Part shown: in pieces, positions 3,492 through 14,955 of the stretch
How the letters are laid out: each line of letters opens with the position of its first letter
Position numbering within the stretch: the stretch's first letter is position 1
Virus record (IMG/VR): IMGVR_UViG_3300030333_003511
Span: 11,268 to 31,414 of that record
Length of the DNA: 20,147 nucleotides
Direction: 5' to 3' (one strand)
Source of the DNA: a virus
Made by a program: the position numbers and the translations under genes
The notes under the pieces: generated by a model
What the model saw: the letters and a program-made list of their open reading frames with translations, nothing else
Told to the model about the DNA's origin: nothing
The model's database searches: none

Positions 3492-4991
3492 ATGGACTAC
3501 GAAGAAAAGTACGAGCAATTACAAGCTCTTAAGAAGTTAAAGAACAATATGGCCTTATTTGGCAAATATTGTTTTCCTACTGCATTAAAGAAGAGTACTC
3601 CTCCTTTTCATACTAATATTTATAAAGATTTAGCAAATGATAAAAAAAGAAGAGTATTAATAGCAGCTCCAAGGGGTACGGCTAAATCTACAGTTACTAC
3701 GCTTATATATCCTTTATGGAAAGCAGCGTTTAAGAAAACTAATGAAGATTTATTTATAGTTATTATATCTGAATCACAAGCTCAATCAATTAACTTCTTA
3801 TCAAGAATTAAGTATCATTTGACTTATAGTACTCAATTTAAACAAATATTTGGAGACTTAGGACCTGAAACAGCTACTAGATGGACGCATACAGATGTTA
3901 TACTTGCAAATGGTGCTAGAATGGTAGCAGTTGGTACAGGGCAAAGAGTTAGGGGTTTTCTACAAGGAGACACTCGTCCTAACTTAATTATAGTAGATGA
4001 CTTTGAATCAGAGTTAAACGCATATACTCCAGAAGCAAGAGCTAAAAATAGAAAATGGCTAACAGAAGCAGTTATACCATCTTTGTCTGATGAAGGCAAA
4101 ATAGCAATGATTGGGACAGTTATATCAGAAGATTGCTTTTTATGTTGGGCAAAAGAGTCAAGTGCTTGGAATGTATTATGGTTTTCTATATGGGATGATG
4201 ATGAAAAAAGTATATGGCCTGAAAGATTTCCTAAAGAAAGAATTTTAGCTATTAAAGAAGAGTTTAAATCTGTAGGAAATATTAATGGATTTTTCCAAGA
4301 GTATATGAATATTGCTCAATCTCCTGATGATGCTCCATTTCAACCAGAGTGGATAAAAATACATCATTATGAATATAAGAGAATACAAGGGCAAAATGTA
4401 TTGATTAAGAATGAAGGAGAGGAAAATGAAGAAATTAAACCTGTGGAGTTGTATACTGGTGTGGACCCTGCATCTTCTCTTAGTGCTAGGGCTGATTATT
4501 TCGTTATTGCTACTATTGCAATCGATAATGATAATAATAAGTATGTGGTAGATATACATAGAGATAGAATATCGCCAGCAGAACAACCAGAGTTAATAAT
4601 AAAACATTATAAAAAGTATAGACCTAGAAGAGTTAAGATTGAGACAGTGGGGTATCAAGAAGCTCTTAGAACAGGTGTTAGGGAGTTAATGAAAGATGAA
4701 AATTTATATATACCAGGATTAGAAGCAGGTGTCAAGCCTAGAAATGCTAAATCTGAAAGATTATTATCGCTTGTGCCATTATTTGCTAAAGGGTCTTTTT
4801 ATTTTAGACCACAAGATACACATGCACAAGGTGAATTTTTATCTTACCCTAAGGGAAAACATGACGATATTATGGATGCTATATGGACTGCTTTAGATAA
4901 AGCAAAACCTTGTAGAAGTGCTAAATTTGAAAGAATTTCTGAAGATGAATGGAGGGATACGAAGAAAAGTCTTGATTGGATGACTATGTAA
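3492..4991 (+). CDS. terL: Terminase large subunit (499 aa)
   Basis: This is the ATP-driven DNA packaging motor and headful or end-cutting nuclease, which docks on the portal. The N-terminal ATPase shows a Walker A-type loop A-P-R-G-T-A-K-S-T at about 59-67. Walker B is L-I-I-V-D-D-F-E at 165-172, and a motif III-like I-G-T sits at 207-209. The C-terminal RNase H-like nuclease shows G-V-D-P-A (D325), K-I-E-T-V-G-Y-Q (E384) and K-H-D-D-I-M-D-A (D458/D459). These acidic residues are the expected metal ligands. Length and domain order are normal for the family. The ATG at 3492 has no good Shine-Dalgarno (the upstream bases are TTTATAAT), so translation may be weak or helped by the gene 14 bases before. 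Confidence 0.97.
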   Translation: MDYEEKYEQLQALKKLKNNMALFGKYCFPTALKKSTPPFHTNIYKDLANDKKRRVLIAAPRGTAKSTVTTLIYPLWKAAFKKTNEDLFIVIISESQAQSINFLSRIKYHLTYSTQFKQIFGDLGPETATRWTHTDVILANGARMVAVGTGQRVRGFLQGDTRPNLIIVDDFESELNAYTPEARAKNRKWLTEAVIPSLSDEGKIAMIGTVISEDCFLCWAKESSAWNVLWFSIWDDDEKSIWPERFPKERILAIKEEFKSVGNINGFFQEYMNIAQSPDDAPFQPEWIKIHHYEYKRIQGQNVLIKNEGEENEEIKPVELYTGVDPASSLSARADYFVIATIAIDNDNNKYVVDIHRDRISPAEQPELIIKHYKKYRPRRVKIETVGYQEALRTGVRELMKDENLYIPGLEAGVKPRNAKSERLLSLVPLFAKGSFYFRPQDTHAQGEFLSYPKGKHDDIMDAIWTALDKAKPCRSAKFERISEDEWRDTKKSLDWMTM

Positions 4992-7227: not shown

Positions 7228-8154
7228 ATGTCAAACGATAATATACAAGCAGACACTCCTAAAGAAAATCCACAAGAATTTGCATCTTTAGAAGAAGCAG
7301 TTTTTGGAGGAAATCAGGACTCTGCAAAAATAACTGACGCTTTCACAACAGGTGACACAGGAAACACAGAAACGGCTTCTGCACCAGCAGAACAACCCGT
7401 TGAAAACGTTCAAAAACCAGCTAATAATGATGAAACAAGATTTCAATATTGGCAATCTGAAGCTGATAAAGCTAAAAATGAGCTAAAACAAGTTAAACAA
7501 GCTTATGAACAACTTGCATCGCAAGCACAAGCACAAGCTCCTGTTCAACAAGAAGCAGTTCAAGAAGAAATGGGTGTTGAAAGTTTTCCAGATGCTCCTA
7601 TGAAACCACAAAGACCTAGTCATTTTAGCAGAGAAGAAGCTTTAGCTGACCCCTCTAGCGAAAGTGCAAGGTATATGGATTCAGTTGAATCATGGAGAGA
7701 TGATATGAATGAGTATAATAGTCTTAAAAGCCAATATCAAGCTACTGTTTTACAGGAAAAAATAGATTCTATGGAAAGACAGAAGGTTGAAGAAGCTCAA
7801 AGATTTCAGGCTCAACAAGCTTATAATCAAAAAACTAATGAAGTCAAGAATTATATTCAAGGACATCATGGGTTATCTGAACAAGAAGCTAATGATTTCG
7901 TTAATACTATGAGTAAACCTGATTCTATAAATATTGATAATCTTGTTCAATTGTACAGAATGAATAGTGGTAAAGCCGCTCCTCAACCTGCACAACCAAG
8001 TGAAACTTTTACTCAGCTACAAAATGCTCAGCAAGTACCATCTCCAATGGGAGTGATGCCTTCTGGACAAACAAATGCTGATAGTCGCACTATGGAAGAT
8101 AAGATTATGGATACAATGATAGGGAATTTTAATAGTAAAAATCCCTGGAAGTAG
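7228..8154 (+). CDS. Scaffolding-like protein (308 aa)
   Basis: It lies between portal and major capsid genes, the standard place for the scaffold that directs procapsid assembly. The composition fits: rich in Gln, Glu, Ala, Lys and Asn. There are two predicted coiled-coil stretches (about 71-103 and 150-210), a Pro-rich link with P-M-K-P-Q-R-P (124-130), and a low-complexity Pro/Gln/Ser region near 255-285. The C-terminus has a helix followed by N-S-K-N-P-W-K. Scaffold C-termini often bind coat protein. No protease motif is visible, so a fused prohead protease is unlikely. AAAGGAGAAAG lies 10-15 bases before the ATG. Scaffolds are poorly conserved, so the call rests on synteny and composition. 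Confidence 0.8.
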   Translation: MSNDNIQADTPKENPQEFASLEEAVFGGNQDSAKITDAFTTGDTGNTETASAPAEQPVENVQKPANNDETRFQYWQSEADKAKNELKQVKQAYEQLASQAQAQAPVQQEAVQEEMGVESFPDAPMKPQRPSHFSREEALADPSSESARYMDSVESWRDDMNEYNSLKSQYQATVLQEKIDSMERQKVEEAQRFQAQQAYNQKTNEVKNYIQGHHGLSEQEANDFVNTMSKPDSINIDNLVQLYRMNSGKAAPQPAQPSETFTQLQNAQQVPSPMGVMPSGQTNADSRTMEDKIMDTMIGNFNSKNPWK

Positions 8155-8157
8155 TTT

Positions 8158-8163
8158 TATAAT
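8158..8163 (+). promoter_or_regulatory. Possible -10 element (TATAAT) before the capsid leader
   Basis: A perfect TATAAT lies in the 71-base gap before the capsid gene. No recognisable -35 hexamer exists at 16-18 bases upstream, and no extended -10 TGn is present. In such AT-rich DNA, TATAAT occurs often by chance (another copy directly precedes the large-terminase ATG). It is recorded only because capsid genes commonly have their own strong promoter. Confidence 0.2.
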
Positions 8164-8204
8164 CCGCCCTACCCAAAGGCCTACCAAGGCAGCTGAGGAC
8201 GGGC
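8164..8204 (+). ncRNA. GC-rich structured leader upstream of the capsid gene
   Basis: This 41-base block is 28/41 G+C in a genome region near 30% GC. It is non-coding. GCCC at 8166-8169 can pair with GGGC at 8201-8204. Inside that, GCCT at 8179-8182 can pair with AGGC at 8187-8190 around an ACCA loop. Two purine/C-rich internal strands remain unpaired (8170-8178 and 8191-8200). This two-stem arrangement with asymmetric internal loops looks like a compact folded RNA rather than a terminator, since no U-tract follows. Its 3' edge is 22 bases before the capsid ATG and just ahead of the AAAGGA ribosome binding site, so it could stabilise the mRNA or control capsid translation. I cannot match it to a known RNA class. 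Confidence 0.45.
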
Positions 8205-8225
8205 AAAATTAAAGGATGGAATCGA

Positions 8226-9590
8226 ATGGGAACATTTTATTCAGGTCAAGCTGGTAACGACCTCAATTCTAGTGTCGATATAAATGATACTAGGCGAAAG
8301 TTTAATTTCGGTGAGAGAGTTGCTGAGCTTGCTCCACAACAAAGTCCATTCTTCGTATATTTATCGAAGGTGGCAAAAAAAGCTACTAATGACCCTGTGT
8401 TCAAGTTTCTTGAGCAAAGACATCAGTGGCAAAGAAGGAACTTTGAAGTTAATACTTCTTTAACTTGGACATTTGAAGCTGGTCCAACTATCGCTAATGC
8501 TGATAGTGATAATCTAGTAATAGATTGTGGATATGACCAGTATGGGAAAATACAATCAAATAACGCTTGTCATTTTCTTGTTCCAGGTTCAGTAATTGCA
8601 ATGAAAGCAGATGACGGTAATGTATATAGATTCAGAATTACATCTGGAGCTACTATTGCTCATTCTGGTACTGATGGTACTAATGGTATAACAACTATTA
8701 CTGTAACAGGTGGTGGTGATGAAATAATACCTTTAGATACTCCAACATCAGGAACTTTGACTTTTAGTGCAAATAACAAAGGTACTGTAGTTGGTAGTGC
8801 ATGGGCTGAAGGAACTGATAGTCCTGTTGGTTGGGAAGATAAATTATTTGACAGAGAAGGATATTGTCAAATCTTCAAAACTGGTATGAATATCTTTTCT
8901 GGTACAGCTATGGCTACTGAATACAGAGGTATTGCTAATGAGTTTCAAAGAATCTGGCAAGATAAACTTATGGAACATAAGATGGATGTAGAACAAGCTA
9001 TGTTATTTGGATATGGTGGTTCTTCTAATGAGCAGTCAACATCTGCTCCTTTAAGAACTACTTGGGGTATTTTACCTTACACTAGTACATATGGTAAAGT
9101 TTACAACATGTCTTATAGTTCATCTGGTTATGATGCTTTCTTAGATGCGATGGAAGATTTCTTCGCTCCTGAGTCTGGTAATAGTGGTAATAAACTAGTT
9201 CTAGCTTCTAGAAAAGTTATTACTTATTTAAATAAATTAGGAAACGGAAGTTTCTTAAATAATTCTGTAGGCTCTTCTCAATATAGATTAGACGTACAAT
9301 CAGTACCTGGTGCTTTTGGGCATACAGTAACAATGGTAAATACTATATTTGGTAATTTACATTTCGTTGCTGAGCCTTTATTAAGAGGACCTTGGGAAGA
9401 TTATTGCGTTGCAGTCGATATGAAGAATGTAGCATATAGACCACTAGTGGGTAACGGTATTAGTCGAGATACCTTCATTGAAACTAATGTACAAGACAAC
9501 GGCGTTGATGGTAGGCAAGACCAAATCATCACTGAAGCTGGATTGGAAATTAGTGTTCCTGAAACTCACGCAATTCTTAAGTTTTCTTAA
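8226..9590 (+). CDS. Major capsid protein (454 aa)
   Basis: Probably an HK97-fold coat protein. The order portal, scaffold, then this protein is decisive for synteny. The N-terminal part has F-N-F-G-E-R-V-A-E-L near 26-35, P-F-F-V-Y-L-S-K-V (41-49) and F-K-F-L-E-Q-R (59-65). A beta-rich, Gly/Thr-rich insertion follows (about 115-200). A helical core surrounds 220-260, and the P-domain-like C-terminus ends with I-I-T-E-A-G-L-E, then P-E-T-H-A-I-L-K. That ending resembles the DUF5309/SU10-type coat family, as recalled from family knowledge. The start at 8226 has AAAGGA about ten bases upstream. The nearby ATG at 8216 is out of frame. The gene follows the GC-rich leader, consistent with special expression control. 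Confidence 0.92.
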   Translation: MGTFYSGQAGNDLNSSVDINDTRRKFNFGERVAELAPQQSPFFVYLSKVAKKATNDPVFKFLEQRHQWQRRNFEVNTSLTWTFEAGPTIANADSDNLVIDCGYDQYGKIQSNNACHFLVPGSVIAMKADDGNVYRFRITSGATIAHSGTDGTNGITTITVTGGGDEIIPLDTPTSGTLTFSANNKGTVVGSAWAEGTDSPVGWEDKLFDREGYCQIFKTGMNIFSGTAMATEYRGIANEFQRIWQDKLMEHKMDVEQAMLFGYGGSSNEQSTSAPLRTTWGILPYTSTYGKVYNMSYSSSGYDAFLDAMEDFFAPESGNSGNKLVLASRKVITYLNKLGNGSFLNNSVGSSQYRLDVQSVPGAFGHTVTMVNTIFGNLHFVAEPLLRGPWEDYCVAVDMKNVAYRPLVGNGISRDTFIETNVQDNGVDGRQDQIITEAGLEISVPETHAILKFS

Positions 9591-10048: not shown

Positions 10049-10072
10049 TAAGTGGTTAGTTTGATTAATCGT

Positions 10073-10097
10073 AGTTGGGGAGCTTCGGCTCCCCACT
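10073..10097 (+). terminator. UUCG-capped GC hairpin after the capsid unit (no U-tract)
   Basis: TGGGGAGC (10076-10083) and GCTCCCCA (10088-10095) form a perfect 8-bp stem around the extra-stable loop TTCG. One bulged T lets AG/CT extend the stem. It lies in the 68-base gap after the 147-residue gene. No run of T follows, so full intrinsic termination is unlikely. Pausing, partial attenuation or protection of the upstream capsid mRNA from 3' decay are better readings. The hairpin itself is unmistakable; its role is inferred. Confidence 0.6.
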
Positions 10098-10116
10098 GCA
10101 CAACGTGGAGATTTAA

Positions 10117-10689
10117 ATGAGTGATTTGACAATAACAACAGCAGGAGTTTCAGTTGCAGCTAATAGTGCTGGTAGTTCTGTATCTACTGGTAAACGTAAA
10201 GTTATACGAGTTATTCCAACTATAGAAACAAGTGAATATACGCAAGGAGATGTAATATTTAACTCTGTAGCTATTCCAAATGCAGTAAGAGAAGAAGGCG
10301 GTTGTTCTAAATTAATAGCTGCATATGTAGTCAGTAATTCTACAGATAACTTGTTATTTGAAATGATATTTACAGAAAATGCTGCAACTTTTGGAACTGT
10401 TAATGCAACAGCAAATATTTCAGATGCAGATATAAGAGCTGCAAAAGTACTATCATCTTGGGCTTGTGAAGCAGTAGATGATACGACAGAGTATCTTGAT
10501 GGTTGTGAAATAAAAAGAATATTTGACACAAGAAGTGTAAATGGTAATACTGTAGGGAATATTGAGCCAACGCTTATGCAAGCAGCAGAAGGTTCAACAG
10601 ATGTATATTTTGCAGTAATAGCAGGAAATTCTACTATTACTTATGCTGGAGCAAATGATTTAGAATTTATTTTTCATATAGAATATTAA
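10117..10689 (+). CDS. Hypothetical structural protein, beta-rich (190 aa)
   Basis: GTGGAG lies upstream of the ATG, just past the UUCG hairpin. The product begins with a Ser/Thr/Ala/Val-rich strand segment (L-T-I-T-T-A-G-V-S-V) and is predicted mostly beta. It includes R-V-I-P-T-I-E-T-S-E-Y near 31-41, an L-L-F-E-M-I-F-T-E-N-A segment near 88-98, and the end E-F-I-F-H-I-E-Y. There is no signal peptide, membrane helix or catalytic motif. It sits between two other beta-rich genes in the head region, so a minor capsid, decoration or fibre-like protein is likely. The family is not recognised. The 10-base gap to the next gene carries AAGGAGAT. Confidence 0.7.
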   Translation: MSDLTITTAGVSVAANSAGSSVSTGKRKVIRVIPTIETSEYTQGDVIFNSVAIPNAVREEGGCSKLIAAYVVSNSTDNLLFEMIFTENAATFGTVNATANISDADIRAAKVLSSWACEAVDDTTEYLDGCEIKRIFDTRSVNGNTVGNIEPTLMQAAEGSTDVYFAVIAGNSTITYAGANDLEFIFHIEY

Positions 10690-12877: not shown

Positions 12878-13183
12878 ATGGACTGGCTAACTGTACTGGA
12901 ACAATATGGAGTTCCTCTTGTAGTAGCTGCGGCTTTTTGGTGGTTTATACAAAAGCAAAATAAGTTCATACAAGACGAGTTGCAGAAAGAATTAAGAGAA
13001 TCTTTTACTAGAGTTGAAAGCATTATAGTAAAGCTAATAGACCAGCAAAAGAAAATGCAACTAGAACAAAAAGGTATAGAAAATAGCTATAAAACTTTAG
13101 TTGAAATTATAGCTCATTTATCGGGTGGATTAAAGGACAAGTATTTAAGAATACAGGAGAAAAATGAAAACAAAAAGTATTAA
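12878..13183 (+). CDS. BhlA-like holin candidate (101 aa)
   Basis: One hydrophobic segment near the N-terminus (about 8-24, G-V-P-L-V-V-A-A-A-F-W-W-F-I) follows a short outside stretch M-D-W-L-T-V-L-E-Q-Y. A basic turn and a long charged coiled coil (27-75) come next, with a Lys-rich tail. This is the layout of BhlA/UviB-type bacteriocin or phage holins, where an N-terminal membrane helix is followed by a cytoplasmic coil. Holins open the inner membrane at lysis. AGGA lies upstream, and the gene overlaps the next one by 20 bases. A membrane-anchored virion or Rz-like protein is the alternative. Confidence 0.6.
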   Translation: MDWLTVLEQYGVPLVVAAAFWWFIQKQNKFIQDELQKELRESFTRVESIIVKLIDQQKKMQLEQKGIENSYKTLVEIIAHLSGGLKDKYLRIQEKNENKKY

Positions 13184-14169: not shown

Positions 14170-14955
14170 ATGAAAAAAACTAAACAAGGGGTGCTAAAAA
14201 GAGCAATAGTAACCCCAGATAAGCACGCACCTATACATGATGTGCCTGCTATAAACGTAGTCAAACAGGCTATAGAGCTCGTAAAGCCCGATATATACGT
14301 TGATTTGGGCGATTTAGGGGAGTTTGGTAGTGTATCCCATTGGCAATGGAAACGTAAGAAAAAACCACCATTAGAGTACATTATGCCTAAAGTAGATGCA
14401 GATATTAAAGGTGTTAATGATTTGTTAGATGAAATTGATGAGTCTTTAGACAAAGTAAAATGTAAAGAAAGACACATTTGTGCAGGGAATCACGATGAAT
14501 GGTTGGATAGATTCGTAGAAGAGCATCCTTATCTAAAAGAATATCGTTTTGAACATGCATGTAAGTTCAAGGAACGAGGATACAAATATCACCCACCAGG
14601 TGAGTATCTAAAAATAGGAAAGCTCTATTTTTACCACGGGCATCATTTTGGTGGACAATACCACGCAGCGAATCATCTTAGGAAGTTAGGTGCCAATATA
14701 ATATATGGCCATCATCATTCCCTGCAGCAAGATAGCGTGACTTATATGGATGGTCCTAAATCAGCATGGTCACTAGGATGTTTAAAAGACATGAGTTCAG
14801 AAAAGAACGCATGGTTAGGTGGAAGACAGCATAAATGGGCACATGCATTTGCTATAGTAGATTACTACAAAGGTGGAAGATTTACTGTAGATATAGTACA
14901 AATAATAGATGGGAAAACCACGGTATGGGGAAAGCTACTAGACGGAAACAAATAA
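14170..14955 (+). CDS. Calcineurin-like metallophosphoesterase (261 aa)
   Basis: The metal-binding motif set is complete and in order: D17-x-H19, G47-D48 in D-L-G-D-L-G-E, G106-N107-H108-D109, H156-G-H158, and G180-H181-H182. These coordinate the two-metal centre of calcineurin-like phosphoesterases, which hydrolyse phosphomono- or diesters. The substrate cannot be read from sequence; nucleic acid ends, cyclic nucleotides or nucleotides are all possible. There is no signal peptide. The start has TAGGAG 11 bases upstream. By hand count, GC in sampled lines is about 42-45%, against about 22-23% in sampled lines of the giant gene that follows. Codons such as GTC, CTC and CCC are more common, pointing to separate acquisition. 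It is an unusual enzyme to find between lysis-type and tail genes. Confidence 0.9.
   Translation: MKKTKQGVLKRAIVTPDKHAPIHDVPAINVVKQAIELVKPDIYVDLGDLGEFGSVSHWQWKRKKKPPLEYIMPKVDADIKGVNDLLDEIDESLDKVKCKERHICAGNHDEWLDRFVEEHPYLKEYRFEHACKFKERGYKYHPPGEYLKIGKLYFYHGHHFGGQYHAANHLRKLGANIIYGHHHSLQQDSVTYMDGPKSAWSLGCLKDMSSEKNAWLGGRQHKWAHAFAIVDYYKGGRFTVDIVQIIDGKTTVWGKLLDGNK

Follow-up and report, generated by a model that had tools for sequence, protein, structure and literature searches.

A structured leader RNA shared by unrelated capsid genes of uncultured phages

A structured RNA encoded on the + strand was found in single copy at a fixed site just 5′ of the ribosome-binding site (RBS) of phage capsid genes, and the same element is common to capsid genes that are unrelated to one another. 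It is very likely a control element for phage coat-protein production that has not been described before. Our preferred reading, held with only modest confidence and inferred without expression or binding data, is a new family of RBS-proximal leader RNAs that set capsid translation via a factor common to phages or hosts and not via the capsid protein.

The window, meaning the whole 20,147-nt stretch of viral DNA that was analysed, holds the element in the 71 nt that separate a scaffold-like ORF from the capsid ORF, with a terminase and a P22-like portal encoded further upstream (Table 1). A preliminary description made from the sequence alone had reported here a GC-rich block of 41 bases with an outer GCCC/GGGC stem, an inner GCCT/AGGC stem, two structured-looking internal loops and no U-tract, and each of these claims held. 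The block at 8164-8204 (G+C 28/41) is the GC-richest 41-mer of the entire window (mean GC 33.8%), the minimum free energy (MFE) fold contains both the outer stem and the inner stem (8179-8182/8187-8190), and the internal loops proved to be filled by a covarying helix of 2-3 bp, a tandem G.A step, an AG/YU helix and a 2-nt AG bulge. An intrinsic terminator was rejected, as no U-tract follows 8204 and a terminator scan called no site. What did not hold was the emphasis on GC content, which is incidental to the window member and not family-wide: type A instances, the form to which it belongs, have a mean GC of 50% (range 33-68%).

The R1 search gave a single match in the window, which was also the sole match across the 31.4-kb virus record. 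At one core position this copy departs from the consensus (A8175, where most have G). Its inner helix is of the UACCC/GGAC class, in which the MFE register is one off the comparative register. Its two core halves form a tandem G.A-type step together with the pairs A8177-U8194 and G8178-C8193. The folding energy was unremarkable, with modest z-scores of −0.9 (71 nt) and −1.85 (46 nt), and the question was therefore decided through relatives, by compensatory changes.

Table 1. Parts of the leader element and flanking features, in window coordinates.
Feature	Position	Strand	Basis or remark
Upstream ORF, 308 aa, scaffold-like by position	7228..8154	+	no family match
RNA element type A, P1 to P1′, 39 nt	8166..8204	+	R1 match 8164-8209, 55.6 bits
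P1 5′ strand GCCC, partner 8201-8204	8166..8169	+	MFE; covarying columns in relatives
UA, consensus linker/bulge between P1 and inner helix	8170..8171	+	alignment A1: U9-A43 pair in main class, A10 bulged; U.C in window copy
Inner helix 5′ strand CCC; comparative register 8173-8198, 8174-8197	8172..8174	+	Y12-n41 UA/CG covariation, Y13-n40 UU/CG exchange; MFE register shifted
Conserved core 5′ half, mostly GAAG, AAAG in window; partner 8193-8196	8175..8178	+	nearly invariant columns, A1 and A6
P2 hairpin GCCUACCAAGGC	8179..8190	+	stem covaries; loop variable (GNRA, UUCG, longer in relatives)
AG bulge	8191..8192	+	invariant in A1 and A6
CUGA (YUGA), conserved core 3′ half	8193..8196	+	UGA invariant, A1 and A6
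GGAC, inner-helix 3′ strand and linker	8197..8200	+	covariation with 8172-8174 in relatives
P1 3′ strand GGGC	8201..8204	+	MFE and covariation
Shine-Dalgarno region AAGGAUGG	8212..8219	+	SD usually 5-10 nt after element in family
Major capsid protein ORF, 454 aa, SU10_MCP PF17236, phrog_1328	8226..9590	+	family matches; start 21 nt past P1′ end

A protein search yielded 80 IMG/VR loci encoding homologous capsids. The core was present in 68 of the 78 that were testable, at 12-95 nt 5′ of the capsid start, and the typical leader element of about 40 nt reads CCC-UAC-YY-GAAG-G..(hairpin)..C-AG-YUGA-NNGA-GGG. Among the ten loci negative by the simple pattern were L027, in which R1 detects the element, and L014-L017 and L019, which carry a diverged hairpin in the leader; no element was found in the capsid leaders of L013, L022, L074 and L077. 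As a separate observation, the capsid leaders of L009, L056, L071, L072 and L014-L017 display an extra small hairpin (of the CCCGUAUGGG or ACCCGUUAUGGGU type) directly 5′ of a longer or diverged element.

Compensatory change was evident throughout the type A stems. In alignment A1 (64 type A sequences, a set filtered for pairing) the 13-pair structure reached a covariation score of 0.459, whereas shuffled alignments gave 0.246 and slid registers no more than 0.174. Against a tree-based null, in which substitutions were re-dealt along the tree, five pairs attained E<0.05, all of them predicted (in P2, in P1 and Y13-n40), and further predicted pairs ranked high without reaching significance. A set of 82 instances, selected by a pattern fixing only the core and the inner loop without any pairing filter, showed stems exchanging C-G, U-A and A-U. 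In the paired columns G-U was frequent and A.C rare, which indicates an RNA of the + strand. Approximately 125 independent double compensatory events were tallied on the capsid-protein trees, a parsimony count that should be read as approximate. The covariation check proposed in the preliminary description was thereby passed, since both stems covary across the leaders of homologous capsids.

A second form of the element, type B, was seen in the leaders of other capsids and has the architecture P1-AAAA-UGAAGG-hairpin-CAGYUGA-AA-P1′. For 56 distinct sequences, picked by the core pattern alone with no pairing filter, 99.3% of cells pair, individual P1 positions appear as G-C, C-G, U-A and A-U, and the covariation score was 0.537, where shuffling gave 0.135 and sliding no more than 0.091. 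The two forms share a common design of P1, a linker or inner helix, the tandem G.A, the AG/YU helix, the AG bulge and a P2 cap. The string UGAAGG...CAGYUGA is invariant in both, except for a Y before GAAG and a rare A for G, whereas the P2 loop and length vary across forms and include GAAA and UUCG loops. That P2 is free to vary while the internal-loop core is invariant matches the expectation for a recognition site. The capsid leaders of L434 and L468 contain a further diverged form with a long P2 (in L434, UUGAUUGCGUAGAU...AUCUGCGUAUUGAUAG), possibly a third type.

The position of the element relative to the start codon is nearly constant. The AUG lies 15-25 nt 3′ of the element in 130 of 134 type A instances and 15-26 nt 3′ of it in 80 of 81 type B instances, and 117 of 120 distinct spacers contain a Shine-Dalgarno (SD) sequence of the AAGGA, GGAG or GAGGU type, mostly 5-10 nt past the element. 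In many type A loci the element lies immediately past the upstream stop codon. One strong sense-strand copy was detected per virus record, both in records scanned whole by R1 and in 19 records scanned by R2; G032 had a weak second R2 match besides its strong copy. The SD region is predicted to be mostly open (unpaired probability about 0.6-0.75), the SD and AUG fall outside the predicted structure, and no alternative fold sequestering the SD was visible in prediction; no simple RBS-masking switch is therefore apparent. The element-free capsid leaders (L013, L022, L074, L077 and many A4-set loci) tend to be short with SDs of the AAGGAG(G) type, a trend noted without statistics.

Wherever the downstream ORF could be read (n = 134, a collection in which some instances had been filtered on pairing), type A copies precede capsid genes, which fall into two clusters of 89 and 45 that are unlinked by blastp. 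Type B contexts add the phrog_9953 capsid (L519) and two members of the window's capsid cluster. The carriers thus comprise three capsid families whose sequences show no detectable relation, SU10-type, phrog_267/544 and phrog_9953; the hhalign probability was 0.1-0.2% for the window capsid family against the other two capsid alignments, and 97.7% for those two against each other. Strong type B copies were also located before small non-capsid genes in L475 (reverse strand, near 4081 in that strand's numbering) and L548 (4076-4115). The ORF following the L475 copy is of 13 codons and itself contains a GGGAC-GAAA-GUCCC hairpin.

At the loci examined, the cluster 2 phages had no detectable relative of the window terminase, portal or scaffold, and 15 whole records, mostly of cluster 2, had no relative of the window helicase. 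Some of them share with the window a small ORF like 12878-13183 (about 60% identity), an ORF like 10117-10689 (38%) and the metallophosphoesterase at 14170-14955, whose presence at up to 66% identity in phages with unrelated head genes suggests gene exchange or shared hosts. The element is patchy in cluster 2: among the protein-anchored loci, 23 of 78 and 8 of 79 have the core, and capsids 76-88% identical were found both with and without it. The phages have no close cultured relatives, and no tRNAs were found in the loci by a tRNA/tmRNA scan, by which a tRNA or tmRNA identity was also rejected.

Two further observations concern the window's virus. The other head-region gap (10049-10116), preceding ORF 10117-10689, holds a strong GGGGAGC-UUCG-GCUCCCC hairpin at 10062-10100 (z −3.6, no U-tract), a motif different from the capsid-leader element. 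In the rest of the virus record (L308:4543-6154), a ThiF-like gene (PF00899) sits next to a JAB-like one (Prok-JAB, scoring under the cutoff), a pairing of E1 and JAB known from ubiquitin-like or defence/counter-defence systems.

No known RNA class accounted for the element. Rfam 15 gave no match in the window at the gathering threshold, and a relaxed search (E<=10) of the window region and a consensus-like member gave none near the gathering score. The family is thus apparently absent from Rfam 15, and no prior description was encountered in the open literature searched, which did not cover a 2017 survey of 224 candidate RNAs. The suggestion of an undescribed phage leader motif is accordingly supported, both by the covarying stems and by the Rfam check that had been proposed along with it. 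GTDB genomes, searched with the type A pattern only, contained 12 matches which on CM rescoring were chance or partial and none convincing; one partial match was in Exiguobacterium (L206, 29.8 bits). Among cultured phages, a consensus blastn search of 50,697 phage records found no real copy, blastn being weak for structured queries of 50 nt; a Staphylococcus phage match was rejected as it lies inside coding sequence. R1 had no match in the leaders of HTVC026P, 111P, 112P, 202P, DSL-LC06, VS-ABTNL-3 and CRP-810.

Resemblances to described RNAs were only partial. Some type A copies share a CUGANGA-like string with the hammerhead ribozyme, an identity that was rejected because the CUGANGA/GAAA core is not kept in alignments A1 and A6, there are two stems and not three, and neither a cleavage-site motif nor an Rfam match is present. 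Like a kink-turn, the element has tandem G.A beside short helices, and one of its strands is bulged; this identity was also rejected, since a kink-turn calls for a 3-nt bulge with tandem sheared G.A directly after it, whereas here the AG bulge is separated from the G.A step by a conserved 2-bp AG/YU helix of A-U and G-Y pairs with standard pairing. A boxB resemblance was rejected on the alignments. The manA and wcaG motifs, RNAs from marine metagenomes and cyanophages (PMC2864571), are likewise structured leader RNAs mainly from uncultured marine DNA and phages, but they precede metabolic genes whereas the element precedes virion genes, and no Rfam match links them.

Protein-responsive leaders situated close to the RBS include the ribosomal-protein leaders and the coat operators of RNA phages. 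The element resembles these in being a small structured RNA just 5′ of the SD and start codon, with one putative target gene, and differs in having no Rfam leader match, no E. coli rRNA match and an SD outside the structure. A ribosomal-protein leader mimic was rejected because R1, run on E. coli rrnH with filters off, reached no more than 6.9 bits (E 2.3), a comparison limited to E. coli rRNA. A capsid-binding operator, which would be expected to accompany related proteins, is disfavoured by the unrelated carrier capsids (the hhalign values above, and also phrog_9953). As the element is common to unrelated capsid genes, the gene product is, in contrast to protein-responsive leaders, an improbable ligand. 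What defines a cis-regulatory leader RNA, namely a covarying structure, the same strand and a fixed position before a gene, is met; its effect on expression is inferred.

In the mechanism we propose, the leader RNA would act in cis on the capsid mRNA, its 3′ end being some 8 nt away from the SD and some 20 nt away from the AUG. The conserved internal loop (GAAG/AGYUGA with the tandem G.A and AG bulge) would be the docking site for a factor acting in trans. This would probably be an RNA-binding protein, encoded by the host or else shared widely among phages, none having been identified. Because the downstream proteins are unrelated, a host or shared phage factor is inferred to be a more likely recogniser than the capsid. 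Binding would adjust initiation at the adjacent ribosome-binding site, and the capsid cistron would gain an output separate from that of the upstream scaffold cistron. The preliminary description had offered stabilisation, processing or translational control of the capsid; the general idea is supported without resolving which, and the constant RBS spacing is taken, by inference, to indicate translation initiation. Translational action, binding of a trans factor and co-transcription of scaffold and capsid are all inferred, and activation versus repression is undetermined. In favour of the proposal, carriers span three unrelated capsid families in phages without detectable relatives of the window terminase, portal or helicase. 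Against it, the structure is not predicted to mask the SD or AUG, the L475 and L548 copies precede non-capsid genes, and some close capsid relatives lack the element.

The main rival, which remains possible, is a role in mRNA processing or stability, where a nuclease cut at or beside the element, or a block to exonucleases, would release a separate, long-lived capsid mRNA from a polycistronic transcript. The intercistronic site, directly past the upstream stop in many type A loci, and the large amounts of capsid required are consistent with this. However, a plain barrier would need neither an invariant internal-loop core nor constant spacing to the start codon, and an RNase III site would usually be longer.

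A small-molecule riboswitch governing capsid translation is unlikely. The compact conserved core beside the RBS does resemble small translational riboswitches, but the context is nearly always a capsid and no metabolic gene, no Rfam riboswitch matched, and an alternative SD-sequestering fold was not visible. Autoregulation, with the capsid protein binding and repressing its own leader in the manner of RNA-phage coat operators, is less likely again. The capsid gene does follow the element directly in nearly all cases, and feedback on coat synthesis has a precedent in RNA phages. Against this, the same core precedes three capsid families without detectable relation, some capsids have it where others of 76-88% identity do not, and two copies precede non-capsid genes. 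Also improbable is a self-cleaving ribozyme separating the capsid mRNA from the upstream transcript: the size, the highly conserved internal loop and the hammerhead-like CUGANGA string of type A speak for it, but the hammerhead core is not preserved, given CUGAUAG or CUGAGAG in many type A copies and UUGAAAG in type B, and there are only two stems and no Rfam ribozyme match. A chance or DNA-level feature (compositional blip, protein-coding residue or cruciform), to which the modest single-sequence z-scores might point, is all but excluded by the massive covariation and the strand bias.

Returning to the leader RNA with a shared recogniser, a bolder version may be considered, although we lean slightly against it: a portable RNA, repeatedly recruited before unrelated capsid genes in uncultured phages, that would read a host factor or the state of host or infection and time or boost capsid synthesis, as a shared late-gene translation module passed between phage lineages whose head genes have otherwise nothing in common.

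The element constitutes a compact RNA family, with two forms proven by covariation, that is linked, across many uncultured phages, to the most abundant protein of the virion. It is usable as a simple marker for capsid start sites in the annotation of viral metagenomes, and it offers a handle on the stoichiometry of capsid versus scaffold within one gene cluster of a dsDNA phage. One RNA core before unrelated capsid genes implies a common recogniser, which is open to direct fishing.
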